This document shows, in pieces, positions 7,444 through 30,057 of a stretch of 64,000 nucleotides of DNA; within the stretch, counting starts at the first letter, position 1; each line of letters opens with the position of its first letter. The notes under the pieces are model-generated. The model was not told the origin of the DNA and ran no database searches. It worked only from the letters and a program-made list of their open reading frames with translations. Made by a program: the position numbers and the translations under genes. The stretch is taken from NCBI GenBank assembly GCA_029254375.1, contig JAQWXR010000002.1:1-64000 (forward strand). The letters are read 5' to 3'. This DNA comes from Schleiferiaceae bacterium (GTDB taxonomy: Bacteria > Bacteroidota > Bacteroidia > Flavobacteriales > Schleiferiaceae).

Positions 7444-7519
<76 letters not shown>

Positions 7520-7687: not shown

Positions 7688-10600
7688 TTAGTGCTGGACA
7701 ACCAGGCGCAGCGTGCGCTGACCCGCTTCGCTTTGAATTCGGACCATGTAGATGCCGGACTTCATAGAGGCAACGTTCAAATGGATCTCATTTGAATTCG
7801 TGTGTTGGTTCAAGACGGGTTGACCCAATGTGTTTAATACCGTTACGGTCTTGCCGCCGTCCATTGGAAGCTTCAAAGTGGCTAGCGTACCGGCAGGGTT
7901 GGGATAGAGGCGCACTTTCTCGAGGGTATTCTCCCCAACGCTGATGGTTTGATTACCTGGAGAGCCTACGTCCGTTCCCGTAGAAGTGTAGGCTCCACGA
8001 ATACCGACCGTGGCATTGCCTAGGTAGGTGCAGTTGGTGTCGAACTCGACAGAGTGTCCCGCTTGCGTACTGGTGTATTCGGCCTTACAGATTTCAATCG
8101 GGTTGGAAGAGGTGTCGAAAAGAACAACCACATCGCTACTGGAGCTCAATGAGGGATAGGCACCATTGACCAATTCATCCGAAGAAATGATCTGCACGTT
8201 GGTATTCGTGAGGCTCCATGCCGCAGCGAAGTCAGCCTCATTGGCTTGAGTGCCCGCCCAAACTACGATCGCTTCGCCTGAAGCGATGCTTACGTTTTGG
8301 AAGACAGAGGTTCCTGGAGCTAAGCTGTTGTCGTCCCATGAGAAGCCGTCCAAATTCACGGTGCTGCTGCCATAGTTCAAGATTTCGAACCAATCGTCGC
8401 TCACATTGCTATTAGGGTCGTTGGAACCTGCCATGATTTCCGTTACAGCCAAGTCGTAGGACATTGGAGTTGGGAAGATGACATCGGCGATGTAACGAGG
8501 AAGCATCTGGTAGCCACTTGTGTAGGGGCTGCTGTTGTCAAATTGACCGCCAATACCCACTACGTCAAAGGTGCCTACAGGGCAAGGTTGGCTGTAAAGA
8601 TCAACATCGGCATCAATACGCAATTGAAGTGTGTTGGTGCCATCCGTGACATCTACGTTGAAGCCTGAACCAGCGTTGGTCCATTGTGCCGGATTGACGA
8701 TTGTGACGTTGTTCATGCGGAGCAGATCACTTTCGGTGCTTTCGTCCAAGGCTACAATAGTTGTAGGCACGGGCAAGCTACCGCCCGAACTAACAATAAC
8801 AATAGAGTCAGCATTGACTTGCGACAGGCCGTTGAACTGTCCGATGGTACCAATAATACGCAGCACATCGCCTTCATTGACGGTATAGTTATGGTTGGCA
8901 GTTGAAGGAGAGAAGACACCAAAGCCTACACTACCATCGTGAAAAGTGAAGGCCACATTGCCCGTGCTGGCGCTTTGGGTATTCACACCAAGCACAGTTC
9001 CTAGAACCTTACAATACACTCCATTGGAATCATTGACGCCATTCGCATCCTGGCCCTTGATTTGAGGAATCGTATAGGTTGGGATGATGATGTCATTATC
9101 GATAATCGTGAAACGCATGGAGTCAATGGCCCCGATTTGGAGGCCGGTTCCTGCTGCGTCAATCAGAAGATCTATATACTCGTTTCCTTCGGTCAATGCA
9201 TCATCAATTAAGGTGATGGATAAGCTCAGGGTATCCGCATTTGCAGGAATAGTTATGCTCGTGCCCGTTGCAGAAATACTCGGATTGAAGCTTGCATCCG
9301 TACCCAGAATGAATCCGGCACCCGCATTGTGACGGATGGTCACCGTTGAGGCTGAAGCGTAGGTCGGGCTGATAACTAAATGAATGGTTTCCGTCACATT
9401 CCCTTCCAGCGCGGATTGTGCCGAAGCGGCAAAACGGATGCTTGGGTTAGTGGACATCACGGGAATGATGTCGTTAGTGTCACGTGGGAAAAGCTGATAG
9501 CCACTGGTATAGGGGCTACTCGCGTCAAATTGACTACCCACACCAATGACATCAAATAAACCGCTTGGAGCTGAGGTGCCATAGAGGTTACAGTCAGCGT
9601 CAATGCGCAAGGCATAGGTATTTGAGCCATCGGTGATGTCCACGTTAAAACCTGATCCGCTATTCGTCCACTGAGATGGGGTCACCAGAGACATATTGTT
9701 ATAGCGAAGCAACTCAGATTCTTCGGGTTCACCCAATCCTGAGGCCAGTGTAGGTGTTTGAATCGCAGCTCCGGTGCTGATCAAAGTCAAGCTATCGGGT
9801 AACAATTCGGTCAAGCCATTGTATTGGGCTATGGTTCCATAGACTTCAATGACATCGCCCATCATAGGAGCAGTATAGCTGCCAATATCGGTGGATTTGT
9901 AAATGTTGATGCCGCCGGTGCCGTCATGGAGATACAAGCTGTAGCCGGCATTCCCGTCGTAATCAATCGTGAAGACCGTTCCTTGGAAGCGAGCCATTGA
10001 ACCCAAGCTATCCGCCACGCCAGAAGCATCTACATTGTTATAGCTACCAATGGCATCGAGGTTGGAAACGGTGCCGCCGTATATGATGTCGTTCGTATCG
10101 CGTGGGAATAATTGGTAACCGCTTGTATAGGGGCTACTGTTATCAAATTGACTACCGACGCCAATTACGTCAAAGGTTCCTACAGGAACGGCTGTGCCAA
10201 AAAGGTCGCAATCGGCGTCAATACGCAGGGCAAAGGTGCTGGTGCCGTTGGTCACGTCCACATTAAAGCCTGATCCGCTATTGCTCCACTGTGAAGGGGT
10301 CACCAAGCTGACGTTGTTGATGCGAACCAACTCCGATTCTTGTGGCTCGTCTAGCGTAGTTGTGATGCTTGCATTTTGCGTGAGGGCACCTAAGGCCAAA
10401 ACGTTGATGCTATCTGGTGCGATTTCGGTCAAACCGTTGAATTGAATAATCGTTCCATATACTTCGATGGAATCACCGCGCTCTGGGGTGGTATAGCTAC
10501 CCAAGTCGCTTGACTTGTAGACGTTAATTCCACCTGTTCCATCATGGATGTAGAAGCTGTAACCGGCATTTCCGTCGTAATCAATCGTGAAAATGGTAGC

Positions 10601-11572
10601 GATGAAGTGGGCATAGGCAGTTAAGCTGTCGGCCACGCCGTTGGCATCCACGCTAGTGTAGTCGCCAATCATGTCATAGGCGGGAGGAGTGCTTGCACAG
10701 GTGGAAACGTGAGCGCCGAGTTGTGTGAAGGTATTTTGAGGATAGACCGTCCATTCCGTTGCGCCGATGGTCCAGTCCAATTGGCCCTTTGTGATGGAGG
10801 CCATGCGCTCCAAGGTATATTCATTGGTCGCTCCCGTTCCAACGGTCCAGTTGCTTCCAGGATCTACGCCCACGATGCCAATAATATCTAAGGTGTCGTT
10901 GTTAGGATCTAATAGCACGACCGCATCGTCCCCATTGTAACTAACTACGTTAGGATAGCCGTAGCTGCTGTCTGCCACAGCCAAAATGGCGGCTACGCTT
11001 TGAGCGTGTGCAATAACATAGGTGCCATAGGCTGGAATCGTTTTACCTGCAGGGAAAACGAAGGTGTTGGTCGTGCTGGTCGCACCGTTAGAGAAGAGGG
11101 CTAAGGTGTAGCCAGCGATACTCTTAGCCGAAGCCGTCGGATTGTATATCTCCAAGGCCTTGTTGTTGCTAGAGCCTTCTACATATTCCGAAATGAAGAA
11201 CTCTGTGCATGGGGCCACATTAGTCGCTACGGATGTCACAGTGATTGTTCCTTGCATGCTGGAGGCATGAGGATCGCATTGATACTGGTAGACGCCAGCA
11301 GTTGCAAAAACATATTGGTAAGACCAGGTACCTCCTGCAGCTGCCCCGTTGCCAAAGCTGGCGGGATTGCTCGAGAAGGTGCTCATAGAACCATTGACAT
11401 TGTGTGTGCCGTTGACTTGAGTCCAGGTTACCGTGTCCCCTTGGCTAATCGTCAAAGAGGAGGGGGAAAAACTCATGTTGACCACAGAAACCGCATGGCT
11501 TGTGGCAAAGGCCATCATGGAAAGTGCCATGAAGGCTAAAGCGTACATTTTTTTCATCATCATATCATTCAT
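7688..11572 (-). CDS. Very large secreted T9SS cargo: plastocyanin-like domain, lamin-tail-like domains, three OB-like repeat modules, Calx-beta domain, type A C-terminal sorting domain
   Basis: Signal MKKMYALAFMALSMMAFATSHA; cupredoxin-like MSFSPSSLTISQGDTVTWTQVNGTHN...YQYQCDPHASSMQGTITV; lamin-tail-like TEFFISEYVEGSSNNKALEIYNPT; repeated DVIGVGSQFDNSSPYTSGYQLFPRDTNDII; Calx-beta-like ALEGNVTETIHLVIS..TEGNEYIDLLID; C-terminus VRLYPNPAGTLATLKLP..GIYMVRIQSEAGQRTLRLVVQH. Start chosen at an internal ATG (11572 or 11563). Confidence 0.85.
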   Translation of the reverse strand: MNDMMMKKMYALAFMALSMMAFATSHAVSVVNMSFSPSSLTISQGDTVTWTQVNGTHNVNGSMSTFSSNPASFGNGAAAGGTWSYQYVFATAGVYQYQCDPHASSMQGTITVTSVATNVAPCTEFFISEYVEGSSNNKALEIYNPTASAKSIAGYTLALFSNGATSTTNTFVFPAGKTIPAYGTYVIAHAQSVAAILAVADSSYGYPNVVSYNGDDAVVLLDPNNDTLDIIGIVGVDPGSNWTVGTGATNEYTLERMASITKGQLDWTIGATEWTVYPQNTFTQLGAHVSTCASTPPAYDMIGDYTSVDANGVADSLTAYAHFIATIFTIDYDGNAGYSFYIHDGTGGINVYKSSDLGSYTTPERGDSIEVYGTIIQFNGLTEIAPDSINVLALGALTQNASITTTLDEPQESELVRINNVSLVTPSQWSNSGSGFNVDVTNGTSTFALRIDADCDLFGTAVPVGTFDVIGVGSQFDNSSPYTSGYQLFPRDTNDIIYGGTVSNLDAIGSYNNVDASGVADSLGSMARFQGTVFTIDYDGNAGYSLYLHDGTGGINIYKSTDIGSYTAPMMGDVIEVYGTIAQYNGLTELLPDSLTLISTGAAIQTPTLASGLGEPEESELLRYNNMSLVTPSQWTNSGSGFNVDITDGSNTYALRIDADCNLYGTSAPSGLFDVIGVGSQFDASSPYTSGYQLFPRDTNDIIPVMSTNPSIRFAASAQSALEGNVTETIHLVISPTYASASTVTIRHNAGAGFILGTDASFNPSISATGTSITIPANADTLSLSITLIDDALTEGNEYIDLLIDAAGTGLQIGAIDSMRFTIIDNDIIIPTYTIPQIKGQDANGVNDSNGVYCKVLGTVLGVNTQSASTGNVAFTFHDGSVGFGVFSPSTANHNYTVNEGDVLRIIGTIGQFNGLSQVNADSIVIVSSGGSLPVPTTIVALDESTESDLLRMNNVTIVNPAQWTNAGSGFNVDVTDGTNTLQLRIDADVDLYSQPCPVGTFDVVGIGGQFDNSSPYTSGYQMLPRYIADVIFPTPMSYDLAVTEIMAGSNDPNSNVSDDWFEILNYGSSTVNLDGFSWDDNSLAPGTSVFQNVSIASGEAIVVWAGTQANEADFAAAWSLTNTNVQIISSDELVNGAYPSLSSSSDVVVLFDTSSNPIEICKAEYTSTQAGHSVEFDTNCTYLGNATVGIRGAYTSTGTDVGSPGNQTISVGENTLEKVRLYPNPAGTLATLKLPMDGGKTVTVLNTLGQPVLNQHTNSNEIHLNVASMKSGIYMVRIQSEAGQRTLRLVVQH
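8470..10690 (-). repeat. Three intragenic ~0.6-kb repeat modules in the large T9SS protein gene (approx. 10080-10690, 9465-10060, 8470-9080; Calx-beta segment between the second and third)
   Basis: Recurring protein blocks: FTIDYDGNAGYS(F/L)Y(I/L)HDGTGGIN(V/I)YKS, (N/S)LVTPSQW(S/T)NSGSGFNVD, LRIDADC(D/N)L(F/Y)GT, SPYTSGYQ(L/M)(F/L)PR. Boundaries are approximate. Confidence 0.8.
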
Positions 11573-11628
11573 TGCATCAAAATTACGGCGAACAAGTTGC
11601 TCAAGCGTTAAGTGAAGGTTAGCAGTGT

Positions 11629-12825
11629 TCATTGAAAGTCTAGGGTACATTTAAATCGAGAGATTCTGCCATTCCCTGCATCTACGACGTACAGAATTTT
11701 TTTCCAATGGGCCACGGCACAGGGCTCCATAAATTGCATCGGTCCATTGCCCTCTCCGCCAAAAGACACATTGGTATACCTTGTTTCACCACTAGCCGGG
11801 GGAGGAGGAATGCCTTCCAAGCCGCTGGCTGTGAATTGGTATACTGAATCGCGTTCACGATCGACAATAAAGAGGTATCGGGTGTTATCCCCTGCCATGG
11901 TCATGGCACAGGGATCGGTAAATCGATTCGCCATATTGATGCTGCGGTCAGCCAAGCTGCTATTCCCCGCATAAATCACCGGCCGGTAGTCCGCTCCAAA
12001 TTCGGTTTCGATAAAACTAATATGCTGCACCTGCAGGGCTTGGTCGGGGTCTTGGGATGTAAACCAAAAATCATCCCCTGCAGCCGCGGTATACTGAGGG
12101 GGTTGAGCAAAGGAAACGATTCCTTGAGGATCCTGGAAGTAGTTGGTGAATAAGCCGGAGGAGGTACTTATACTCAAGGGAGAGATGTATGCATCTTCAT
12201 TGCTGAAAAGAATCACGGCATCATCTGGCCCTTGATTGGCATTATTCGAACTTGGCCCTTTGCGAGTGAGATAGTAGCGGTTGTTCTTCTCGGAGTCTGA
12301 ATTCGCAAGGATAGCCACTTGACCAAAACGCACTTGGGCATCAGAGGCAGAGAAGGTGTTTTTGAAATAAAACGGGTGGATGGTTTTATGAATCACTTGA
12401 GCATAGGGAAGGCCATATTGGCCGTCTGAATCAATTTGGCGGATGCGATAGAGGCAGGCCAAGGAGTAATTTACACCGTTCACTAAGGTGTCAAAGCTTC
12501 CAATTGCAAGGAGATCGAGTTGGCGATCTTGACGAACGCTTTGTACCCCGGGGATGGTCATTCTTCCCTGCTCCGCGCCAGATTCATTCAGACAAATAAT
12601 TTCCTCGGTGGCCTCATCTACGACGTAGAGCAATTCATCATAGCCAATACAGAGGTCGGAGGGATGGACAAAGCCACCAAAAGAAGGCTCAATGGGGACG
12701 TAGGCAATGTCACGAATGCTATAGGTCGGGACATCAATGAAACTCAAGTCCGTTTTGTTTCCAAGGTAGCCCTCGCACCCTACTAAGGTCGCCGCAGCGA
12801 GAATCAGTGCAAAATACTTATTCAT
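11629..12825 (-). CDS. Exported lipoprotein with NHL/beta-propeller-like repeats
   Basis: Lipoprotein signal MNKYFALILAAATLVGCEG (start at 12825; ATGA overlap with the upstream gene's stop); repeated segments such as FVHPSDLCIGYDELLYVVDEATEEIICL, PCAMTMAGDNTRYLFIVDRERDSVYQF, PCAVAHWKKILYVVDAGNGRISRF. Confidence 0.75.
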   Translation of the reverse strand: MNKYFALILAAATLVGCEGYLGNKTDLSFIDVPTYSIRDIAYVPIEPSFGGFVHPSDLCIGYDELLYVVDEATEEIICLNESGAEQGRMTIPGVQSVRQDRQLDLLAIGSFDTLVNGVNYSLACLYRIRQIDSDGQYGLPYAQVIHKTIHPFYFKNTFSASDAQVRFGQVAILANSDSEKNNRYYLTRKGPSSNNANQGPDDAVILFSNEDAYISPLSISTSSGLFTNYFQDPQGIVSFAQPPQYTAAAGDDFWFTSQDPDQALQVQHISFIETEFGADYRPVIYAGNSSLADRSINMANRFTDPCAMTMAGDNTRYLFIVDRERDSVYQFTASGLEGIPPPPASGETRYTNVSFGGEGNGPMQFMEPCAVAHWKKILYVVDAGNGRISRFKCTLDFQ

Positions 12826-13847
12826 GGCTTCGCAAATTGAGGGGTAAATACAAGGCCAAGGGTATTTCTCCAGCCCATGGCATCCGTTCGTTGTGCAGCC
12901 ACATCTACACGGATGCCAAATGGACCCATCGTTCCTCCATCGTAGGACAAGCCTCCCATTGGCCACGATTGGCCCCGCTGATTAAATCGACTGCCAAGGC
13001 GAGCCTTCAGTCGGTTATTGAATTGATATTCGAGCCCCAAACGATAATTTTCTGCATTGTCATTGGGGTGAACCAATTGCGCGGCCACCAATAATTGACG
13101 TTTTCCAGATGCCCAGGGCACAAGACTCAGGCCCATGGCAAATTCGGTAGGTAAAGTGTTTGATTCTAAGCCTTCCATAGGGGTACGATTGTAGGAAACA
13201 GGTAAAAATTGCCCTCGCAATGCGGAGGACCCTCCAAAATTCCGAAGTACCACGGCAAAGCGAAGATCCTTGACATCGGTCGTGTATAAAAAGCCGACAT
13301 CAGCTGCAGCCGTGTAGGCAGAATAGGCTCCTGTTTGACTTCCTGTGGTATAGACTTCTCCGATGCCTTTGAGGGTTATGCCGAGTTGAAACTGTTCACT
13401 AAGACGCTGGGCATAGCTCAATCCAACCGCGCTTTGGGAGGAGTATAATTGATAGCCTGTACCTCCGGGCTGGAATTCTGTTCGTTCAGTAAAGGCAGGA
13501 GTTTGTAAATGATTGATTGCAATTCCCCAGGCGGCATCTCGGCCTTTCCTGGGCAGTGTGAGCATGACGCCCATGTTCTGGCTTCCACCAGCAAGACCTA
13601 GTTGACTCAACGCGAGGGAGGAGCTCTTCAGAGAGGCTATCCCCGCGGGATTGGTACCCAAGGAATAGGCATCTCCGTCCAAGGCGACCGATGCGCCAGC
13701 TAGGCCAGCAGAACGCACATTGAGATCATTTTTAAGGAAAGGGAAGGCGGATTGACCCGCGCGTTCGCCCCCGTAGGAAGGAAGTAACTGTGCATTCACC
13801 CCATAAGCGAGGGCAATGATGCTAAAATATGTCAATAGGATCCTCAT
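12822..13847 (-). CDS. PorV/PorQ-family (UPF0164-like) outer membrane beta-barrel protein
   Basis: Signal peptide; GQSAFPFLKNDLNVRSAGLAGASVALDGDAYSLGTNPAGIASLKSSSLALSQL; VGLSYAQRLSEQFQLGITLKGI; YRLGLEYQFNNRLKARLGSRF. Confidence 0.78.
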   Translation of the reverse strand: MRILLTYFSIIALAYGVNAQLLPSYGGERAGQSAFPFLKNDLNVRSAGLAGASVALDGDAYSLGTNPAGIASLKSSSLALSQLGLAGGSQNMGVMLTLPRKGRDAAWGIAINHLQTPAFTERTEFQPGGTGYQLYSSQSAVGLSYAQRLSEQFQLGITLKGIGEVYTTGSQTGAYSAYTAAADVGFLYTTDVKDLRFAVVLRNFGGSSALRGQFLPVSYNRTPMEGLESNTLPTEFAMGLSLVPWASGKRQLLVAAQLVHPNDNAENYRLGLEYQFNNRLKARLGSRFNQRGQSWPMGGLSYDGGTMGPFGIRVDVAAQRTDAMGWRNTLGLVFTPQFAKP

Positions 13848-16696
13848 AGCTTGAACGTTAGGCCATAAAGGATTTGACGGGGCGCTTGGTAGCGCGAGGG
13901 ATCCCGTGGATCTAAGCCACTTTCTTGGGGACCGTTATATTCGGGACGAGGGTCTCGCCATTCATTGGGAACATCATCCCCGTATTCATAGGCGCGCCCT
14001 GTGATTGGGTTGATAATTTGTGAATTTCTTCGGTCGAATATATTCTTGATTTCCAGCGATAGGGTAATTCCCCGTTGGTACGTTCCCCGTGCCAAAGTAT
14101 AGGACCACTTAGTATCAAAGTTGTGCCATGGCTGGGCAATGGACTGAAGGTATTGATCAATCAATGGGCGGTATTGTGGACGTCCTAGGTTGTTGACTCC
14201 AGTATATTCATAAGGGGTGTAGCGGTAACCTGAAGAGGCGTTATACTGCACATAACCGCTTAGTCCAGCCAGAGAAAGGCGCCCAAAGCGAAAGGTCGTG
14301 TCGGCGCTAAAAAACACCCCCCAATTTGTGCTCCACGGGCGGTCCCATGCGAGGTAATTCTCTTTGGTGAGCGAAACTTCGCCGTTTTGTTCAATTTGGA
14401 GAGCGGACTCCCTTGCGGAGTTCGACTTGCCGCGGGCAACTTGGAAACTTCCATTTCCAAAGAGGCGGAAGTAGCGGGCAAATCGGAAATCTACGCCTAA
14501 TTCTAGTCCTTGGATTTTGGCATAATCCTGATTAATGTACATTGTTTTGGTGACTGGACGGCCCGTTTGGTCTTTAACGATTACGCGGCGGGAGACGATG
14601 TAGTCAAAGCGATTATTGTTATAGGCTCCTACCGTGATGGCCAAATCACGAGTCAATGCGGCCTTATAGCCTACCTCGTAGGATACGTTGACCTCGGGAT
14701 CGAGGTCAGGATTTCCTAAAAAGCTCAAGAAACTTCGATCCTGGTATATGGGATCCAAGCCCGCATACAAGAAGCGCGGGTGGGGGAGACGCATGCTGTG
14801 TCCGTAGTTAAAATACAAGACATTGTTTGGGGTCACGGGAAAAGAGACGTTGATTCTTGGCAAAAGGCGCGCTTTCCAGCGAAGTCCTCCAAGAGCGATT
14901 GTCTTATCCATGTATTCGCTGCGGATGGCGGGAATAACCGGCGCAGTAGAATCTGCTACGGCCTGGTCAGCGAATGCCCCAGGGGCCCAATAATTAAAGC
15001 GCATTCCAAGACTGGCTTGAATCCCTTTGTAACTGATTTGGTCTTCAAAAAAGGCGCCTCCTTTCTGTGGGTTGACCTTCCAAATGTCGTTGCTCGAACC
15101 AATGCTGATGCTCGGCGTACTGAGCGTGTCGTTGATTTGAATCGGCGCTCCTACCCAAGGAGCGGTGACGTCAACCCATTGGTATTCGTTCCATTGATGC
15201 TCCCAGCCGCTGGCAATTTGGTGGACTTGATTCTCGGGGTAATAGTTGAGCTTTCCACGCAAGGTATACTCTTGGGCATAGTGATCGTGCCAAGTGGAGC
15301 TAATGCCGCCATTGTTGATCAGGCCATCTCCAGGGCGGATGTAAAAGATGCCACTGGGATCATAGGGATTGAAGACCTCCAATGGGTACGATGCGATATT
15401 GTCTTCATCCAAAATACCGTCAACCGTCGCAGTGCGGAAGGGTCGGCCATTGGCGTCTGCGCGCAGGTTGGTAAACATTCTGCCGGCACTCAAGGTGAGT
15501 CCCCAATGACGATTAATCACATGGCTTAGATTCAACGCTGTCAAATTGCTGTGATGGGTATAGGTCGTGGCATTATCCAAATTGCGGGAACGCGCATATT
15601 GGTAGCCGGGGGCCAAAATGGCATCGAAGCCAACGATTTGGAGCGTCCGAGAATTTTGGTTGATGTTCAAGGAATGTTGATTCGTCACAGTGAGTTTGGT
15701 GCCGCGCTTTACTTGCCAGCCGATCTTGGCCGTATGGGTCCAGCTATTGCTTTGCCTTGGGGCATAGCGTTCTGGATTCTCTGGAAACAGCGATGAGTGC
15801 AATTGATCCGCTACGGAAGGGAAGTAGTCATCCGTGATGTCCATGGTGGCAGAGTTAAAAACGGTCACATTATTCTTTGTGCCCGGAAGTGGAAAGGAAA
15901 CATTGAGTTCTGCCTGATCCGTGTTGAAACTACTGTTTGGTCGCTCAGAGCCCAGGTAGTCCCGGATGTAACGCCCCGAAACTTCGAGTCGGTCTCCCCC
16001 CTCGCGTATTTTGGTGCTAATCACCCCAGATGAGCCACCTCCAAATTCGGCAGAAGCCCCACCCGTCGTGACCTTGACACTTTGAATGGCGGAGGATTGT
16101 ACGCGAACGCCAAATCCTGTGCCAGCCAGAGGATCTTGGGCGGAAATCCCATCGACTAGATATTCCGTTTCATAGACCCGTGCGCCACGAATTTGAATGC
16201 CATCGTTGGTTTTGGCCACACCCGCTTGAAGGGAAACGACTTCTTCCACGGAACGGACATTCATTTGGGCGATATCGTCTCCGGTGATGGAGCGTTCGCT
16301 TTTGGCCGACTCGAGGTCGACTTGCGCCCGTTGACCCAAAACCGTGACAGTTTGCAAGACATCGACGGAGGAGCTCATTTTGATGTTGCGTTGAACCACG
16401 GCACCTCCTTGTATTCGAAGGCCATTGATTACCTGGGTTCCATATCCGAGGACTTGGACCTTAATGCTATAATCTCCCGCAGGCACCAAGGGGAACTGGT
16501 AGCGGCCATCAAAGTCCGATACTGCATTGAGGTAGGTTCCCACGATCGTGATTCCAACATTGGGGAGCGTCTCGCCCGTCTCGCTATCGCTGACCACCCC
16601 ACGTAAAATTCCCGTCTTCTGAGCATAGCCACTGAAGGCACACAAAAGCATGAAAATAAGCCAAGGGAAGCGCCTACCAGTTGAAGTCATAAACAA
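13844..16696 (-). CDS. TonB-dependent receptor with N-terminal carboxypeptidase-regulatory-like domain
   Basis: GILRGVVSDSETGETLPNVGITIVGTYLNAVSDFDGRYQFPLVPAGDYSIKVQVLGYGTQ; plug RSITGDDIAQMNVRSVEEVVSLQAGVAKTNDGIQIRGARVYETEYLVDGI; ~950-aa barrel. Confidence 0.92.
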   Translation of the reverse strand: MFMTSTGRRFPWLIFMLLCAFSGYAQKTGILRGVVSDSETGETLPNVGITIVGTYLNAVSDFDGRYQFPLVPAGDYSIKVQVLGYGTQVINGLRIQGGAVVQRNIKMSSSVDVLQTVTVLGQRAQVDLESAKSERSITGDDIAQMNVRSVEEVVSLQAGVAKTNDGIQIRGARVYETEYLVDGISAQDPLAGTGFGVRVQSSAIQSVKVTTGGASAEFGGGSSGVISTKIREGGDRLEVSGRYIRDYLGSERPNSSFNTDQAELNVSFPLPGTKNNVTVFNSATMDITDDYFPSVADQLHSSLFPENPERYAPRQSNSWTHTAKIGWQVKRGTKLTVTNQHSLNINQNSRTLQIVGFDAILAPGYQYARSRNLDNATTYTHHSNLTALNLSHVINRHWGLTLSAGRMFTNLRADANGRPFRTATVDGILDEDNIASYPLEVFNPYDPSGIFYIRPGDGLINNGGISSTWHDHYAQEYTLRGKLNYYPENQVHQIASGWEHQWNEYQWVDVTAPWVGAPIQINDTLSTPSISIGSSNDIWKVNPQKGGAFFEDQISYKGIQASLGMRFNYWAPGAFADQAVADSTAPVIPAIRSEYMDKTIALGGLRWKARLLPRINVSFPVTPNNVLYFNYGHSMRLPHPRFLYAGLDPIYQDRSFLSFLGNPDLDPEVNVSYEVGYKAALTRDLAITVGAYNNNRFDYIVSRRVIVKDQTGRPVTKTMYINQDYAKIQGLELGVDFRFARYFRLFGNGSFQVARGKSNSARESALQIEQNGEVSLTKENYLAWDRPWSTNWGVFFSADTTFRFGRLSLAGLSGYVQYNASSGYRYTPYEYTGVNNLGRPQYRPLIDQYLQSIAQPWHNFDTKWSYTLARGTYQRGITLSLEIKNIFDRRNSQIINPITGRAYEYGDDVPNEWRDPRPEYNGPQESGLDPRDPSRYQAPRQILYGLTFKL

Positions 16697-18143: not shown

Positions 18144-18152
18144 GGTAATGAC

Positions 18153-22510: not shown

Positions 22511-23811
22511 GGCATTTTTTGGCTCGAGGGTTGGCGCCCTGGAGGCCTCAAAGTGAAAACCAGAAGGCCTTGGGCTGAGCTTAAATCTGGAAGCGGAAAG
22601 CGCAAGGATTCAACGTGACCTTGTGCCACGATGCGTCCCAAAAGGTCTGTGCAATGCCAGGGAGAGCCCAAGGCGGCTTGACTCACGTCCACCCAATAGC
22701 CATCTTGGCGTTTCCCTAGGATTTGAAGTGCTAGGGCTTGCTGCTCGTTGATAGAGATTTGCAAGCGTTCAATATCAATGTCCACATACACTGGGAGGTG
22801 GTCACTCATTTCATATAAGGCTGTCAGAATATTCGATGGGACCGAGTTGTTTGTAGGAGAATTGATGGAGGAATTGAAGTGGAGTCCATCGTTGCCCACC
22901 GGAGTGAGTGATCCATTAATGTAGGTCATTTTGGCGGTGCCATCGGCGACATCGTCGCTAAACAGCACATGGTCAAATCGGTCATCCAGACCTCCGCCAG
23001 AAAAGCATCCATTGTTGGTGGCGCCATCTCGAGTACTCTGACTGTGGAGATTTCGAAATGTGTAGTTGTTGTTCCAGTTTCCGGGTTGATTTTCGGGATC
23101 GTAAAAACGAAGTGCCGCGGTGGAGTAATTCAATAGATTCTGAAAACCGGTTTCTTGGCTTTTGGGCATGTTCAAATCCCCTGCCAGAAAATAATTTGAA
23201 CCGAGATTGTGGGAGGATATGTATGCCATCAGGGCGGCCGTCTCACGGGCACGGTCGGCGATGTCGGAGGCCGACGATCCGGCTTTTAGGTGGGCAGCAA
23301 ACACGGTAAAGATCACGGTATCCGGATTGATCATCAATAAGGAGTCCCGATAATAGAAGGTTTTCACATCGATCCCACGGACCAAGTTCTGATTGCTTAC
23401 GTCCTTGGTTATCAGGTCTTGGTTCAACAGACCCAATTTATTTTGGTCGTAGTAGATGCCATTCACCAAGGAGGATCCGTTGGAAAAGAAGTCGGTCTTT
23501 TCCCAACGAGTTTCGCCGTTGACATTGAGTGAGTAATTCAATACTCGACCGTGCGCAGTGGTATTGTCCCCGTTGATTTCGTTGCAAACCAAGAGGTCAG
23601 GCTGGCTGTAGGCAATGATATCCGCTAGGTAGCCTTCTTTACTGACGGCGTTATTGCTTGAGCTTGGACAATAACTGGTGAAGTTGCGGTAATTGAGCAG
23701 ATTGTAGGTCATCACGCGCAAACGCTCCGGAGCCTGTCCATACAGCGAAGCGCTAGCCATTGCACAGCAGATAAATACGGAAAAAATGAACTTGTAGCTT
23801 GATCCGGGCAT
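22507..23811 (-). CDS. Secreted endonuclease/exonuclease/phosphatase-family protein
   Basis: Signal MPGSSYKFIFSVFICCAMASASLYGQ (internal start near 23811); RVMTYNLLNYRN, PDLLVCNEING, FAAHLKAGSS, YFLAGDLNMPKS, LDDRFDHVLFSDDV, MSDHLPVYVDI: EEP-fold motifs; weak C-terminal sorting-domain-like end. Confidence 0.82.
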   Translation of the reverse strand: MPGSSYKFIFSVFICCAMASASLYGQAPERLRVMTYNLLNYRNFTSYCPSSSNNAVSKEGYLADIIAYSQPDLLVCNEINGDNTTAHGRVLNYSLNVNGETRWEKTDFFSNGSSLVNGIYYDQNKLGLLNQDLITKDVSNQNLVRGIDVKTFYYRDSLLMINPDTVIFTVFAAHLKAGSSASDIADRARETAALMAYISSHNLGSNYFLAGDLNMPKSQETGFQNLLNYSTAALRFYDPENQPGNWNNNYTFRNLHSQSTRDGATNNGCFSGGGLDDRFDHVLFSDDVADGTAKMTYINGSLTPVGNDGLHFNSSINSPTNNSVPSNILTALYEMSDHLPVYVDIDIERLQISINEQQALALQILGKRQDGYWVDVSQAALGSPWHCTDLLGRIVAQGHVESLRFPLPDLSSAQGLLVFTLRPPGRQPSSQKMP

Positions 23812-23875
23812 AGCGTTCAAAGGTAGACCAAAGTGGCGCAAAAAAAGAATGCCAGCTTCACCCGCATTCCATGTT

Positions 23876-26773
23876 TTAGAGCTGAAAAGCAAGCCCGCCA
23901 TTGAGCCCCCAACCCGGCATGTAGCGACTATAGATTTTATCCGTGGCTTGGTAGGATTTGTAAACGCTTAACACGTCATCATTGAGCAAATTGCTTGCAC
24001 GCAACTTGAGGCTGATTCCCTTTTCCTTTCCCAATTTGGTAGTGAAGCTAAAATTCAAACTGTGGAAGGGCTGCGAATACACATCAGGGAACAAGCCCAA
24101 TCCCACAATTTGGAGCGTTGGGCCCTTCACGTTGTAATACACGCCAAAGTTAGTTTGGCTCTCGGGAGTTGTATAACTCACGCCGCCATTCAAAACATAC
24201 GGGCTCTGGCCGGCCATGGCACGGGTGTTGGTAATCGTTTGACCAATGCGCTCATAGCTCTTACGCGAATTGAACTCGACATCACTCATGGTAATGCGGG
24301 AGTCGATGAAAGTCACGTTTCCGTTGAAGAATAAGTTCTCCATGGATTCGCTCAGTCCCGCAAAGCTGGCATTCCACTCTACTTCAGCGCCAAACATGCT
24401 GCCTCGACCCACGTTCCTGGGTTGAAATTCCGTAGAGGTTTGCTGCTCTGCGATGCGCACCATCTCGATGGGATCACTAAAGTCTTTGAAAAAGCCACTG
24501 ATTGAGAACATTTGGCCACGGTCCCAGAACGTCTCCCAACGAAGGTCTGCGTTATTAATGCGCGTCTCAACCAATTGGCCATCCCAGGCAGCGTATTGGA
24601 AGAAGGAGCCATTAAAAATCCGGTTGGTCAAAGGGTCGATAATCTGGGCAAAGCTCAACTCCTTAAACGAGGGGCGTGCGATGGTACGCGTGGCAGAGAA
24701 GCGCAGGTTTTGAGATTCATTCAGCGAGTAAATGACATTGAGCGATGGGAAAAGATCGAGCGAATTCAAAACGACATCATTCGTCAAATTTTTCCCGTTC
24801 GTAATATTGCCACTGGCATAGGCTTGGTCTCGTCCAGTGTAGCGTTGAATGTAGTGTTCTGCGCGCAGACCTAGGGTTGCTTTCGTCCGAAGATTGAGTG
24901 AAAATTCCGTACTCACATAGGCGCTAGCCGTATTCGAATTAGAGGAATATTCGTTGGGATTTGGATCGTTGTTACCGGTTTGGTAATAGATACGATTTGG
25001 GTAGTTGGGATAGATGTTCGCCGGATTCAAAACTTGGTTGGGGTCATCGTCAGACCAACTCTGGCCTCCAAAAAATTGCATGTCGTAGAAGAGAATCTCA
25101 TAGTGACGGAACTTGAACGCATTGCCTACGCCATAGAGCAATTTAGCGGGCTCATCCAGGAAGGTGTATTTCTTGGTGACATCATACCGAAAGGGAACAT
25201 TCACTTCTTGGAGGTAGCGCCAGATTCTTGAGGGATTGCCTCCCGCACCTGCAGAAAAGAAGGTATCCGTGCCATACGTAAAGGCTGTTTTGCGAATGTC
25301 TGGATCCGTTGAGAGGGATAAAGTGGGGGCCACGCGCCAATCAATTTCCACGTTTTTCTCTGGCTTTACCGTGGTTCCATTGAACAAGATATTGGTCAAG
25401 GAGCGTTGGTTATACTCTAGGTTGTTAGAAAAAGCGAGGTATCCAGATTGACCTACTGCTTCGGCATCATTGTCAATCCAAAACTGGCCCGCACGGCTTT
25501 CGCCATTTTGGAGGTGCATGAGTGTCATGCGGAATTTTTTCAAATTCGTCTTGTAGGCAAATCCGAGGATACCGCCCAATAGTGTACTCTTTTCACCGAT
25601 CTGGCCTTGCTGCTTCGTAGCATAGCGAAGTTCGTATGCCGCAGGGTCGATGTAGCGTTGATATTCCCCGTAGAAAACATCATTGTAGAAGTTGTAGTTG
25701 CTCTTGTAGCTGAGGGAGAGGACAAAGCCCATCTTGGGCGTCTCGCCTGATTTGGTGGTCTTCTTTCCTTCCCATTGATTTCCAGTAGAGTAGCCCATGC
25801 TCAGATCCATTAAGGACATCTGCTTCATCGCCCCGAGGGTCGGATTAAAACTCTGTACAAAAGAAGTTACTTCACTGTTCGGATAGAAAATTGGCGTCGG
25901 TATGGATGAGCCACGCGCCCCAGCAGGTAAACGTCGGGTGCCATCGTCAAAACCCAGGAAATCTAATTTTCCACCTTGGTAAGTCAAATAGTTTGTGTTG
26001 AGATTCATCGCCGGATTGTAGCTCGTGCTCAAAGAAAAAGAAGCAATCTTCTTGTCCGGGAATGCCTTGGTCTCAATATTAAGTAGTCCGCCGGTGAAGT
26101 CCGCCGGTTGATCCGCGGTAAAAGATTTGCTGACCACAATGTTACTGACCAAATCCGTTGGGAAAATGTCCATCTGGATGGTGTTCTTGTCTGGATCCAA
26201 TCCAGGAATATCCATGCCGTTCAATGTGGTTTTTGAATAGCGATCCCCAAGTCCGCGAATGTAAACGTACTTACCGCCTTCAACGGTCACGCCGGTCACC
26301 CGTTTAGCTGCTTCTACAGCGGTAGCATCTCCGATTTGGCTGATGCGCGCGGCCGAGATGCCGTCCACCATGGCGGTGGATTTTTTCTTCAGCGTAAGGA
26401 GTGCAATTTCATTGTTGCGTTGAACTTCCGCTACAATGAGTACCTCATCCAACTTGAGGTTGTCTTCTGGATTGAGAGCCAGTTCTCCCAAAACGGTCAC
26501 CTCATTGGAATTCACTTGAACACCAGCCAGTCGCAAGGTCTGAAAGGTGAAGTAAGAAATCTCAATCACGTGCGCACCTGGAGCGGCTTTAAGGCTGAAG
26601 TTGCCATCTAAGTCCGTGGCGGTGTTTCCATTCTCGCAGGTAGCACAGGTAACGGCTGCCCCAATGATCGTTTCTCCTGATTCACTATCAAGGACGATAC
26701 CGCGAATAGTCCCACTTTGTCCAAAGCTACTTAATGAGCTGATAAGCAATGCAATAGCTATAAAAGTGCGCAT
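23876..26773 (-). CDS. TonB-dependent receptor with carboxypeptidase-regulatory-like domain
   Basis: GTIRGIVLDSESGETIIGAAVTCATCENGNTATDLDGNFSLKAAPGAHVIEISYFTFQT; plug ISQIGDATAVEAAKRVTGVTVEGGKYVYIRGLGDRYSKTTLNGMDIPGLDPDKNTIQMDIFPTDLVSNIVVSKSFTADQPADFTGG. Confidence 0.93.
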   Translation of the reverse strand: MRTFIAIALLISSLSSFGQSGTIRGIVLDSESGETIIGAAVTCATCENGNTATDLDGNFSLKAAPGAHVIEISYFTFQTLRLAGVQVNSNEVTVLGELALNPEDNLKLDEVLIVAEVQRNNEIALLTLKKKSTAMVDGISAARISQIGDATAVEAAKRVTGVTVEGGKYVYIRGLGDRYSKTTLNGMDIPGLDPDKNTIQMDIFPTDLVSNIVVSKSFTADQPADFTGGLLNIETKAFPDKKIASFSLSTSYNPAMNLNTNYLTYQGGKLDFLGFDDGTRRLPAGARGSSIPTPIFYPNSEVTSFVQSFNPTLGAMKQMSLMDLSMGYSTGNQWEGKKTTKSGETPKMGFVLSLSYKSNYNFYNDVFYGEYQRYIDPAAYELRYATKQQGQIGEKSTLLGGILGFAYKTNLKKFRMTLMHLQNGESRAGQFWIDNDAEAVGQSGYLAFSNNLEYNQRSLTNILFNGTTVKPEKNVEIDWRVAPTLSLSTDPDIRKTAFTYGTDTFFSAGAGGNPSRIWRYLQEVNVPFRYDVTKKYTFLDEPAKLLYGVGNAFKFRHYEILFYDMQFFGGQSWSDDDPNQVLNPANIYPNYPNRIYYQTGNNDPNPNEYSSNSNTASAYVSTEFSLNLRTKATLGLRAEHYIQRYTGRDQAYASGNITNGKNLTNDVVLNSLDLFPSLNVIYSLNESQNLRFSATRTIARPSFKELSFAQIIDPLTNRIFNGSFFQYAAWDGQLVETRINNADLRWETFWDRGQMFSISGFFKDFSDPIEMVRIAEQQTSTEFQPRNVGRGSMFGAEVEWNASFAGLSESMENLFFNGNVTFIDSRITMSDVEFNSRKSYERIGQTITNTRAMAGQSPYVLNGGVSYTTPESQTNFGVYYNVKGPTLQIVGLGLFPDVYSQPFHSLNFSFTTKLGKEKGISLKLRASNLLNDDVLSVYKSYQATDKIYSRYMPGWGLNGGLAFQL

Positions 26774-26806
26774 AGGTGTTCATTTTGTTGCCGCAAAAGT
26801 CCTAAT

Positions 26807-26835
26807 AAAAAATGCCCGCACTTTCGTGCGGGCAC
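26807..26835 (-). terminator. Intrinsic terminator/attenuator between the beta-helix lipoprotein gene and the TonB receptor gene
   Basis: TGCCCGCAC-TTTC-GTGCGGGCA hairpin; minus-strand reading is followed by TTTTTT. Confidence 0.75.
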
Positions 26836-26866
26836 TTGTTTAACCATTTGTTAATGGTTTAGAAAC

Positions 26867-28051
26867 TTACTTGATCGCGCCAGACTGGGCAGCCCAAGTC
26901 CAAGAGAAGACGGAGGTGTTCGCTTTTGGCGTCGTTCCCGCGGTGATTCCGGGAACCGTCACTCCACCTTTGATAAAGTTCTGAACGGTATCTACATTCA
27001 AGACGATGTCTGTGAAGAAAACAGCGGGAGCATCCACACGGTTGATTATCTGACCTGGCTTGATGTCTGTGATGTAGATATGCTCCAAACTCACAGGAGT
27101 GTTTGCGTCGGTGTTGATTAAGTCATGTGAAGTGTGGTCATCGCTGGATGCTTGAACATTGCCATTTTTGATGGTGTGTGAAGCAGTATACGAACCTTCA
27201 GGCCCATCTAGCTCAAAGCAATGATCCAAAGGAGTAATGATGACAAAGTTGTCCAAGGTACCGCCCCATGCTTGGTCGGTATCAAAAGCATCATCCCCTG
27301 CGTTCCAAGATACCAAGTTGGTAATGTTAATCATACCACCCCAAACCTCGACGCCGTCATCCTGATTGGATACGATTTCGATGTTTTCAATGGTTGTTCC
27401 AGAACCTATCCCACCCAAAGAAAGACCATTGATTTCATTACCCGCGCCGATGTTCGTACCACCATGACGGATAGAAACGTAGGAAAGGTGACCTGAATTG
27501 TCGGTGTTGTCTGAACCACCATATAAACCGTTGGCATCAGAAGTTGGAATGCCTTCGATTTGAACTTCAGAAACATCTCCAGCTGAGTTGGAAGCGGAAA
27601 TGATTCCGTTACCAAGGATGATCACACCCCCCCACAAACCACTTACGTTCGGATCGAGGTTAGGTCCTTTGAAATCGCCAGTCATCAATTGCTCATGGGA
27701 GATTTCATCCGCTACCGTCGTGAAGATGATTGGCATAGAGGCGGTGCCTACAGCCATCAATTTAGCACCACGTGCGATTAACAAAGCCGTAGCGTTGGCA
27801 CCGGTACCCGCTTCGCCTTTAATCACCGTTCCAGGCTGGATGGTGAGTGTTGCGCCGGCGGTTACAGTGATACGTCCGCCCAATTGGTAGGTCGTGTCCG
27901 AATACCAAGTCTCGTTAACGGTAATGTTTTCAGTGATAATTTTGTTGGTGTTGTCCCCTGGATTTGGATCCACTGGTGTCGCGGGATCGCATGAAGTCAA
28001 GGCAAAAGCCGCGAGGGATGCGAATGCTGAGATCTGAAAAAATGTTTTCAT
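26867..28051 (-). CDS. Lipoprotein with predicted right-handed beta-helix-like repeats
   Basis: Lipobox AALAAFALTSCDPATP..; GGRITVTAGATLTIQPGTVIKGEAGTGANATALLIARGAKLMAVGTASMPIIFTTVADE; repeated beta-helix-like turns with WGGVIILGNG. Confidence 0.75.
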   Translation of the reverse strand: MKTFFQISAFASLAAFALTSCDPATPVDPNPGDNTNKIITENITVNETWYSDTTYQLGGRITVTAGATLTIQPGTVIKGEAGTGANATALLIARGAKLMAVGTASMPIIFTTVADEISHEQLMTGDFKGPNLDPNVSGLWGGVIILGNGIISASNSAGDVSEVQIEGIPTSDANGLYGGSDNTDNSGHLSYVSIRHGGTNIGAGNEINGLSLGGIGSGTTIENIEIVSNQDDGVEVWGGMINITNLVSWNAGDDAFDTDQAWGGTLDNFVIITPLDHCFELDGPEGSYTASHTIKNGNVQASSDDHTSHDLINTDANTPVSLEHIYITDIKPGQIINRVDAPAVFFTDIVLNVDTVQNFIKGGVTVPGITAGTTPKANTSVFSWTWAAQSGAIK

Positions 28052-28080
28052 AATTAATTCATGATTTTTAATTGACGCTG

Positions 28081-28088
28081 CAAACGTA
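28081..28088 (-). promoter_or_regulatory. Candidate -7 element (TACGTTTG on the minus strand) for the TonB/T9SS cluster
   Basis: Plus-strand CAAACGTA; exact TAnnTTTG, 29 nt upstream of the ATG at 28051. Confidence 0.5.
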
Positions 28089-28097
28089 TCCGGGATA

Positions 28098-28125
28098 TGT
28101 TAAGGCAGTTTTAAATCCATATGAA
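28098..28125 (-). promoter_or_regulatory. Candidate Pho-box-like array: TTCATA-N5-TTAAAA-N5-TTAACA (minus strand), 11-bp phased
   Basis: Minus strand reads TTCATATGGATTTAAAACTGCCTTAACA; three hexamers at exact 11-bp spacing ending 9 nt upstream of the -7 element. Similarity to the Bacillus PhoP TT(A/T/C)ACA-N5 repeat is by recollection. Confidence 0.35.
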
Positions 28126-28252
28126 GAAATAAATTCGATATGCTTCCTAAGCTTTTTGTAATATTAACCTAACATTGAAGCGGTTGATGTTAGCCCAAGT
28201 AGGCATTCGTTTTATGGATTTGTAAAGTCCCCGTAGGATGATAAGCTCGTGG

Positions 28253-28260
28253 TAAATTTG
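28253..28260 (+). promoter_or_regulatory. Candidate -7 element TAAATTTG upstream of the phoB-like gene
   Basis: Exact TAnnTTTG, 30 nt upstream of the ATG at 28291. Confidence 0.45.
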
Positions 28261-28290
28261 AAACGAAAAACCAAATAATCCAGTGTATTC

Positions 28291-28971
28291 ATGAGCAAGC
28301 ACAGTATACTTCTTGTTGACGACGATCCGGATATTCGCGAATTCCTTTCGTTTAATCTTGAAAAGGAAGGATTTCAAGTATACACGGCAAAAAATGGATT
28401 GGATGGCGTGGAGGCCTGCAAGAAACACAAGCCAGATCTCGTCATATTAGATGTCATGATGCCCGGAATGGATGGCATAGAAGCCTGTGAGGCGATTCGT
28501 GCCATTCCTGAGATCTCCAATACCCTTGTTGCTTTTTTGAGTGCTCGTGGAGAGGACTATTCGCAAGTGGCAGGGTTCGATTCCGGAGGCGATGATTACA
28601 TTACCAAGCCCATTCGCCCCAAAGTTTTGGTGAGCCGGATTAAGGCTTTGCTACGTCGAAATTTAAAGTCAGATGTGCTGCGAGAGTCCATCATAGTGCT
28701 TGGAGAACTGCGCATTGATATGGAAAAATACCAGGTATTTAAAGGCGATAGAATTCTTGACATGCCTAGAAAGGAATTTGAACTACTTAAGCTCCTTGCC
28801 AGCAAGCCGGGCAAAGTCTTCAGCCGCGACACTATCATGGATCGCGTTTGGGGAACGGAGGTCATTGTCGGCGGGCGGACTATTGATGTGCACATTCGTA
28901 AAATCCGTGAAAAGATTGGGGATGATCGAATTAAGACCATCAAGGGAGTGGGTTATAAGTTTGAAGATTAA
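28291..28971 (+). CDS. OmpR/PhoB-family response regulator
   Basis: ILLVDDDPDIREFLSFNLEKEGFQVYTA, VILDVMMPGMDGIEACEAIR, DDYITKPIRPKVLVSRIKALLRR; winged-helix DNA-binding domain MPRKEFELLKLLASKPGKVFSRDTIMDRVWG. Confidence 0.95.
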   Translation: MSKHSILLVDDDPDIREFLSFNLEKEGFQVYTAKNGLDGVEACKKHKPDLVILDVMMPGMDGIEACEAIRAIPEISNTLVAFLSARGEDYSQVAGFDSGGDDYITKPIRPKVLVSRIKALLRRNLKSDVLRESIIVLGELRIDMEKYQVFKGDRILDMPRKEFELLKLLASKPGKVFSRDTIMDRVWGTEVIVGGRTIDVHIRKIREKIGDDRIKTIKGVGYKFED

Positions 28972-28977
28972 CCTGCC

Positions 28978-30057
28978 ATGTTAGACCGTCCGGAGCGAAT
29001 TGCTTTTTTCGTAGCGGCCTGCTTAGGACCCGTTGTTTGGGGGGTAATGTTTGCACTTTTCGTCTTGGTCCAAAGTCCTTCCGGAGGGCTTCCTCTGCCT
29101 GTCACCGAGATTCCCTACTTAGAAATTTCCTTGTTGAGCATCTTTATTGCCAGTGCCGTGGCCTTTTTGGTCGAGGCTTTGGTTCGCCAATTTTTATACA
29201 CCCGCTTGCTAAAAATTTACAAGGTCATTTCCAACCCAGATAAGTACCGAAGTGCCTTGCTAGCGGACGCCGAAGAGATTGGAAAAGTAGAGATGGAAGT
29301 TCGAAGCTGGGCCCAGCGCACCTCCACGGAGGTGGTAAGCCTTCAGGCCCGTGATGATGTTCGTCGGGAGTTTATCGCCAACCTCTCCCACGAATTGCGC
29401 ACCCCAATTTTTAATATCCAAGGATACGTGCTCACGCTGATTGACGGAGTCAAGGACGGCAAAGTCCGAAAGGATTACCTAAAAAAGGCGAACCGAAATG
29501 TGGAGCGAATGATTCGACTGGTGCAAGACATGGATGTGCTCGCCCACCTTGAATCCAATCGGCTCAACCTGAACCAAGAAAATTACAGTCTTACGGAGCA
29601 AATTGAAGATGCCTTAGAGCAAATGTCAGATCGACTAAATCAAGGGGGGATCCTTGTCATCCGCGACTATGACTTGAGCGAAAACTATGAGGTGAATGCT
29701 GATCCCGAGCGAATGGATCAAGTATTGTTGAATTTGATCAGCAACAGTATTAAATATTCAAGAGAAGAGGAAGGCGCTTCGGTCAAGGTGTCCATCCGAG
29801 ATGCAGACAAACAATACTTGATTGTTATTGAAGATAACGGAATTGGGATCCAAAAAGAGGATCAGGGGCGGGTTTTTGAACGTTTTTATCGGGCAGATCG
29901 AAGCCGAACGCATACCAAAAAGGTTGGGGGAACAGGCTTGGGATTGGCCATTGTAAAGCATATTATCGAAGCCCATGGACATTCCATTAAGGTGACTAGT
30001 GCCCCGGGGCAAGGCACATCATTCTCTTTTACGCTCAGCAAGGTGCAGGCGGTCTAA
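28978..30057 (+). CDS. PhoR-like sensor histidine kinase
   Basis: Two TM segments at the N-terminus; FIANLSHELRTPIFNIQGYV H-box; LLNLISNSIKYS N-box; DNGIGIQKEDQGRVFERFYRADRSR; GGTGLGLAIVKHIIEAHGHSI. Confidence 0.95.
   Translation: MLDRPERIAFFVAACLGPVVWGVMFALFVLVQSPSGGLPLPVTEIPYLEISLLSIFIASAVAFLVEALVRQFLYTRLLKIYKVISNPDKYRSALLADAEEIGKVEMEVRSWAQRTSTEVVSLQARDDVRREFIANLSHELRTPIFNIQGYVLTLIDGVKDGKVRKDYLKKANRNVERMIRLVQDMDVLAHLESNRLNLNQENYSLTEQIEDALEQMSDRLNQGGILVIRDYDLSENYEVNADPERMDQVLLNLISNSIKYSREEEGASVKVSIRDADKQYLIVIEDNGIGIQKEDQGRVFERFYRADRSRTHTKKVGGTGLGLAIVKHIIEAHGHSIKVTSAPGQGTSFSFTLSKVQAV

Follow-up and report, generated by a model that had tools for sequence, protein, structure and literature searches.

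The 64,000-nucleotide stretch analysed here (positions 1 to 64,000 of contig JAQWXR010000002.1 from the Schleiferiaceae bacterium assembly GCA_029254375.1; hereafter, the window) carries a minus-strand gene string, positions 28051 to 7688, that is a genus-specific junction of two loci lying apart in most relatives. The first, locus A, consists of a PhoB- and PhoR-type pair (PhoBR), a beta-helix-like lipoprotein, a TonB-dependent receptor (receptor 1) and, at the far end of the string, a protein with cupredoxin, lamin-tail (LTD) and OB modules and a type IX secretion system (T9SS) tail. The second, module B (11629–23811), is a separate operon lodged inside locus A in the window's genus, and combines an enzyme of the endonuclease/exonuclease/phosphatase (EEP) fold with a conserved six-gene core. 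A first-pass annotation of the window had read the string as one surface machine; our analysis, which was computational throughout, confirms the observation itself and supports the interpretation in part. Every open reading frame (ORF) described earlier was found at its coordinates and strand. The cluster starts at 28051 rather than 26773, the beta-helix lipoprotein gene (26867–28051) standing between PhoB and receptor 1, and its description as continuous and overlapping holds for the single strand and the many overlaps but not for a gap of about 65 bases between receptor 1 and the EEP gene. The arrangement is conserved across many genomes and is therefore not due to chance. The assembly measures 1.70 Mb and is 88.5% complete; it comes from a marine bacterium. 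L- and G-numbers below label loci and genomes, and C-numbers denote contigs.

The case for two loci rests on the surroundings of the EEP gene in 60 family genomes and on the genome-wide positions of the EEP, beta-helix lipoprotein and PhoB genes. In 44 genomes EEP and PhoB are unlinked, lying on separate contigs or at a distance of over 20 kb; several of these genomes carry both on one contig, 33 to 889 kb apart. Their linkage is confined to two genera, g1 and g5 (the window's genus and one other), and only there do PhoBR, TDO-like and M23 genes flank module B. Locus A, for its part, holds together: lipoprotein and PhoB are divergent and at most 1.5 kb apart in 44 of 49 family genomes (13 genera), and nearly all of the locus A regions retrieved have receptor 1 adjoining the lipoprotein. 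In the majority of other genera the cupredoxin/LTD/OB protein comes after receptor 1; one genus includes genomes (L056 and L083) in which it comes after the NHL gene of the core. Moreover, a lipoprotein homolog occurs within 5 kb of PhoB in 14 of 20 genomes from two other families of the same order, and the 709-aa protein of the core was absent among the genomes listed from those families. Conserved linkage of these gene families to phoBR, a check that had been suggested for the whole cluster, is seen for locus A but, outside g1 and g5, not for module B. Because PhoBR keeps company in other genera with the lipoprotein and receptor 1, and often with the cupredoxin/LTD/OB protein too, but not with module B, we read the module as lying inside the Pho locus in the window clade. 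In the window and its closest sisters it is flanked by receptor 1 on one side and the cupredoxin/LTD protein on the other; certain other g1 genomes have EEP directly facing PhoB and carry the lipoprotein and receptor 1 on different contigs. The order of module B itself—EEP, 709-aa protein, OB/T9SS protein, 489-aa lipoprotein, receptor 2, PorV/Q barrel, NHL protein—is kept in nearly every genus sampled. One genome assigned to the same genus (G042, locus L045) retains EEP, the LTD/DUF5689 protein and PhoBR, the rest of the module being missing from the region.

Signals between the two halves were also found in the window. A terminator-like hairpin with a T run (23840–23870, minus strand; dG −15.1 in the window) separates locus A from the EEP module, following receptor 1 with a perfect stem in the sister locus L025 and a similar one in L026. 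Beyond it stands a candidate −7 box of the module, TACCTTTG (23818–23825, minus strand), a TAnnTTTG box that is kept in L025 and L026, is changed by one base in L027, and lies so near the EEP start codon that the message may be leaderless or the promoter a different one. The earlier proposal, a single Pho-regulated machine for nucleic-acid scavenging that is transcribed as one unit from 28051 to 7688, could draw on the single strand with its many overlaps, on one Pho box at the head and on the EEP and OB modules. The separation of the loci in 44 other genomes, the terminator with the module's own −7 box (23818–23870) and a further terminator-like stem (26810–26837) all tell against it. With the loci unlinked and a terminator between the halves, the single machine is not borne out and we reject this reading, which we consider very improbable.

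Within locus A, the response regulator (28291–28971, plus strand; receiver and winged-helix output domains) is the divergent neighbour of the lipoprotein and the sole close homolog of its kind in the genome. Its best NCBIfam match is PhoB, at 210 bits against a cut-off of 296, and the histidine kinase (28978–30057, plus strand; HisKA and HATPase_c) matches the PnpS and PhoR models at 229 and 207 bits, both under their cut-offs. The kinase gene follows PhoB throughout the family. The pair had been described as PhoB-like and PhoR-like and divergent from the cluster, as is indeed seen at 28291–30057; although the scores stay under the equivalog cut-offs, conserved context and the Pho box identify the regulator as the PhoB ortholog, and on the same grounds we rejected a regulator outside PhoBR. 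The first gene of the locus on the opposite strand encodes the secreted FII-type lipoprotein (26867–28051, minus strand), which has a lipoprotein signal peptide with its Cys, no match in a Pfam search and a beta-helix fold judged by inspection only. In genus g18 (L255–L257 and L269) this gene is duplicated in tandem, and L269 contains two PhoB genes about 4 kb apart. A strong terminator-like stem (26810–26837) lies between the lipoprotein and receptor 1 genes, which would fit a higher expression of the lipoprotein than of the receptor. Receptor 1 (23876–26773, minus strand) shows CarboxypepD_reg, plug and barrel domains. The far-end protein (7688–11650, minus strand; likely start at 11563) carries an N-terminal cupredoxin domain missing from the earlier description, besides LTD, DUF5689 and OB modules, and its type A T9SS tail scores above the curated cut-off (TIGR04183, 55.5 bits). 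A tRNA-Gly(GCC) gene occupies 7444–7519, between mutS and the cluster, beside a strong hairpin that ends the cluster.

The intergenic region shared by the lipoprotein and PhoB genes contains 11-bp direct repeats common to the family, and in the window they form a Pho box of three such repeats, TGTTAAGGCAG/TTTTAAATCCA/TATGAA (28098–28125, plus strand). A 28-bp matrix built from 18 sites of other genera, with the window site held out, scored this box at 18.8 bits—shuffled sequences gave 0.2 +/- 3.5, with 0 of 200 as high—and ranked it first among 127,946 window positions, the runner-up reaching 11.5 bits. In addition, a search of the whole genome for the three-repeat pattern gave a single perfect match, at this same site. 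The Bacteroidota −7 promoter box of the lipoprotein operon, TACGTTTG (28081–28088, minus strand), follows nine bases downstream of the Pho box, a spacing also found in other genera. Near the phoB start, conserved repeats and a second candidate site were seen by eye and failed the combined box/−7 test. A looser pattern search of the genome gave, at two mismatches, no excess over a reversed-pattern control, so we claim no further regulon members. The second-best pattern match in the genome (L286; genome G000, C21, about 83407–83444) consists of several TTAA-type repeats spaced by 11 bp directly before the gene of a small secreted 131-aa protein.

This organization resembles a locus already described in Flavobacterium johnsoniae, where Fjoh_0543–0546 (the PUSIV locus) encode PhoR, PhoB, a TonB receptor and an FII lipoprotein; strong induction at low phosphate is seen for the receptor and lipoprotein and, as regards the genes matched here, for Fjoh_0544–0546 (PMC8115612). 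In PUSIV, as in locus A, PhoBR diverges from the genes of a TonB receptor and of a secreted lipoprotein of pectin-lyase-fold type; unlike PUSIV, the window has the receptor and lipoprotein in reversed order, an added cupredoxin/LTD/OB T9SS protein and a seven-gene module lodged inside. By this analogy, locus A is a PUSIV-type locus, an already known kind of phosphate-starvation locus. The FI–FIII lipoproteins are reported by Lidbury et al. to be homologous with ElpS of Caulobacter crescentus (PMC8115612), a secreted lipoprotein produced during phosphate starvation (PMC2996285, cited in PMC8115612). The window lipoprotein is likewise secreted and would be produced under the same condition.

Turning to module B, its first gene encodes the putative T9SS-tailed EEP enzyme (22507–23811, minus strand; start ATG at 23811, ORF open to 23901). 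The protein had no match in a Pfam search but has a profile hit to the MnuA nuclease; the profile of its homologs matches Nocturnin (6mal, E 0.004) and, at the C-terminus, the solved T9SS C-terminal domains 8glk and 8glj, the tail being recognised by the family profile only. In an alignment of 14 homologs, residues N67, E108, H204, D242, N244, D310, D367 and H368 are invariant. The secreted EEP-family protein of the first-pass annotation thus retains its catalytic residues, and a catalytically dead fold was rejected. Of the three outcomes that the first-pass annotation had named as refuting it, two, a regulator pair outside PhoBR and an EEP protein without catalytic residues, did not occur.

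The six core genes follow on the minus strand. The first (20381–22510) specifies the secreted 709-aa protein, nearly always a single match per genome, with a mean column identity of 69% within the family. It had no match in Pfam or NCBIfam, no recognised T9SS tail and nothing significant in a PDB sequence search with its profile. Its structural model (predicted local distance difference test, pLDDT, of 87.6) suggests an N-terminal beta-sandwich, FN3-like regions and C-terminal Ig-like regions, for which Foldseek returned only generic beta-sandwich/FN3 matches with low template-modelling (TM) scores and no functional lead. Core gene 2 (18153–20384) encodes an OB-fold protein whose OB region is related to ExeM/NucH and whose type A tail (TIGR04183) exceeds its curated cut-off (26.7 bits; Pfam 31.2). 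The first-pass annotation had named two proteins with such tails, and both—this one and the 7688–11650 protein—pass; the LTD and OB modules it had noted fall together in the latter, along with DUF5689, and as OB in the former. Core gene 3 (16674–18143) yields a 489-aa surface lipoprotein with fibronectin-III-like domains, an alpha/beta C-terminal domain and a profile match to a chitinase FN3 domain; its predicted model (pLDDT 91.4) likewise retrieved only generic beta-sandwich/FN3 folds in Foldseek, with low TM-scores and no functional lead. Core gene 4 (13844–16696) is TonB-dependent receptor 2, about 58–96% identical across the family and scoring best against hemin receptor models, under cut-off; domain search confirmed both of the TonB-dependent receptors reported earlier. 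The barrel encoded by core gene 5 (12822–13847) had been called PorV/PorQ-like, and this stands at the family level (NF033709, 111.6 bits, cut-off 90) but not for either equivalog, since it fails the PorV model NF033710 (42.9 against 250 bits) and that of PorQ. The main PorV of the genome is another gene (377 bits, C9), a second family member lies on C42 (130 bits), and the T9SS component SprA is present. Core gene 6 (11629–12825; ORF open to 12966, with a lipoprotein signal at an internal Met) encodes an NHL/beta-propeller-like lipoprotein with a weak NHL match, one homolog of which passes the NHL cut-off.

The distribution of this core extends far beyond the family. Of 396 genomes sampled from the class, 93 carry the 709-aa protein, the best match in each having an E-value of 1e-80 or better, and strong matches occur in many genomes from other classes of Bacteroidota. 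Named relatives with a homolog include Owenweeksia, Phaeocystidibacter luteus, Thermaurantimonas aggregans and metagenome-assembled genomes labelled Schleiferiaceae or Cryomorphaceae, and these place the window's genome with Owenweeksia and Phaeocystidibacter in the family Schleiferiaceae. Each of the six core families is present, with fixed order and strand, in 35 to 39 of 40 loci fetched from other classes, and the most frequent non-core gene family nearby appears in 6; the OB gene is the most divergent, being recovered in 28 of the 40 by the family profile and in 36 by clustering. Only Flavobacteriales-type genomes have EEP ahead of the core, and the six-gene core predates the enzyme. We found no description of the core in the open-licence PubMed Central papers searched. 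In three Flavobacteriales-type loci (L166, L180 and L181) the core is closely preceded, on its own strand, by a gene for a 697–698-aa protein; in L166 this gene encodes polyphosphate kinase, a further possible phosphate link.

Whether module B answers to PhoB was assessed with a two-repeat matrix trained on locus A sites only, against a background of 807 control upstream regions. This matrix was a second attempt on the EEP upstream regions, chosen after looking at them and following the 28-bp matrix scan. In 26 of 59 loci the region upstream of EEP scores above the 95th percentile of controls (rank test, p = 2.7e-14, a value not corrected for relatedness and inflated by related genomes), and the genus median does so in ten genera, nearly all of them with an unlinked module B. 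Most sites that have a −7 match place it 19 or 30 bases from the Pho-box-like site; together with the nine bases of locus A, these spacings fit steps of about one helical turn, and in g1 and g5 the spacing is 24–26 bases by the script's count. In other classes, the region preceding the core passes the 95th percentile in 7 of 38 cases (p = 0.0025), and the sites there are suggestive only. Four such operons (L206, L204, L212 and L234) carry Pho-box-like sites of 14–16 bits upstream of the 709-aa gene. The Pho control that had been claimed for the entire cluster is hence supported for locus A, by the Pho box and the PhoB ortholog, and supported but indirect for module B, by the EEP sites in ten genera; Pho-controlled scavenging by module B is plausible.

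On this basis, we lean, by a modest degree, towards a reading with two systems, in which a Pho-driven locus A meets an independent module B that would cleave and import a phosphodiester substrate. T9SS would export the EEP enzyme and the OB protein, the dedicated PorV-family barrel would help to display them on the surface, and the lipoproteins and the 709-aa protein would form a surface complex. EEP, the OB protein and the two lipoproteins would bind and cleave an extracellular phosphodiester—nucleic acid or another organophosphate—and receptor 2 would import the products. In most related genera the EEP promoter would be a direct target of PhoB; Pho control in the window clade would persist only via read-through past the terminator, or may have been lost.

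Several observations weigh against this two-system reading. The window clade has no recognisable Pho box before EEP, and a terminator precedes its promoter; in the large genus g18, too, most genomes are without a box before EEP. The relatedness that inflates the rank-test value belongs to the same account. In other lineages the upstream neighbours of the core are mostly housekeeping genes, and since the core occurs without EEP outside Flavobacteriales and only 7 of 38 of its upstream regions pass, its function need not be phosphate-related. Furthermore, phosphomonoesterases and sphingomyelinases share the EEP fold, which therefore does not imply nucleic acid, a substrate still unproven. The core could instead be a general outer-membrane system, serving adhesin or surface-layer assembly or the uptake of something other than phosphorus, such as a metal complex or a glycan, with EEP and PhoBR as lineage-specific additions. 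Collinear cores without EEP and with few Pho boxes in other classes, the generic beta-sandwich and FN3 matches of the 709-aa protein at low TM-scores, and the preference of receptor 2 for hemin receptor models, albeit under cut-off, would all suit such a system. However, it leaves aside the Pho-box-like sites that recur before EEP in ten genera, mostly in helical phase, the OB and LTD modules typical of extracellular nucleases and the polyphosphate kinase gene just upstream of the core in one lineage; we hold it to be a real possibility, though short of an even chance.

A different emphasis would make module B mainly an auxiliary T9SS branch, in which the PorV-family barrel would be a shuttle dedicated to the operon's own T9SS-tailed proteins. 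Almost all lineages examined do encode such cargos together with the barrel, but a TonB receptor and two lipoproteins are conserved in the operon to the same degree, and the barrel is clearly distinct from true PorV. We regard this as rather unlikely to be the module's main role; it covers the display step only and is compatible with the two-system reading.

Comparison with known systems helps to place module B. The PusCD systems (PUSI and PUSII; PMC8115612) likewise tie outer-membrane import to phosphodiesterase-type enzymes, with organophosphate scavenging proposed, yet no cluster protein has a SusD domain, the window receptors fall far under the SusC/RagA model cut-off and the accessory proteins differ. 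ExeM/NucH extracellular nucleases share LTD, OB and EEP modules with the window, but join them in a single LTD-OB-EEP chain, whereas here they sit on separate T9SS-exported proteins; accordingly, NF033681 reaches 48 bits against 300, with partial coverage of the OB region only. As for T9SS, the window barrel shares its family with PorV and PorQ, yet it fails both equivalogs, is dedicated to its operon and coexists with a true PorV elsewhere. A broader and more tentative proposal, to which we give less than even credence, is that the core is a distinct ancient Bacteroidota outer-membrane uptake machine without SusD, built from T9SS-exported binding proteins, a PorV-family barrel, a TonB receptor and two lipoproteins. 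Flavobacteriales would have added EEP and a Pho box, turning it into a phosphodiester scavenger, and streamlined marine lineages would have merged the core with the Pho locus.

The six-gene core is the part that most deserves follow-up: its gene order is kept across classes of a major phylum, its boundaries are sharp, and one of its proteins belongs to no Pfam or NCBIfam family. Genes annotated as hypothetical thereby become a defined, testable surface system, and the Pho-box matrix offers a tool for predicting Pho regulons in Bacteroidota lineages without genetics. No PstB was found above cut-off in the genome, at 88.5% completeness of the assembly. If the scavenging reading is true, module B would provide small-genome marine Bacteroidota without a recognisable PstB with an added route to phosphorus from dissolved organic matter.

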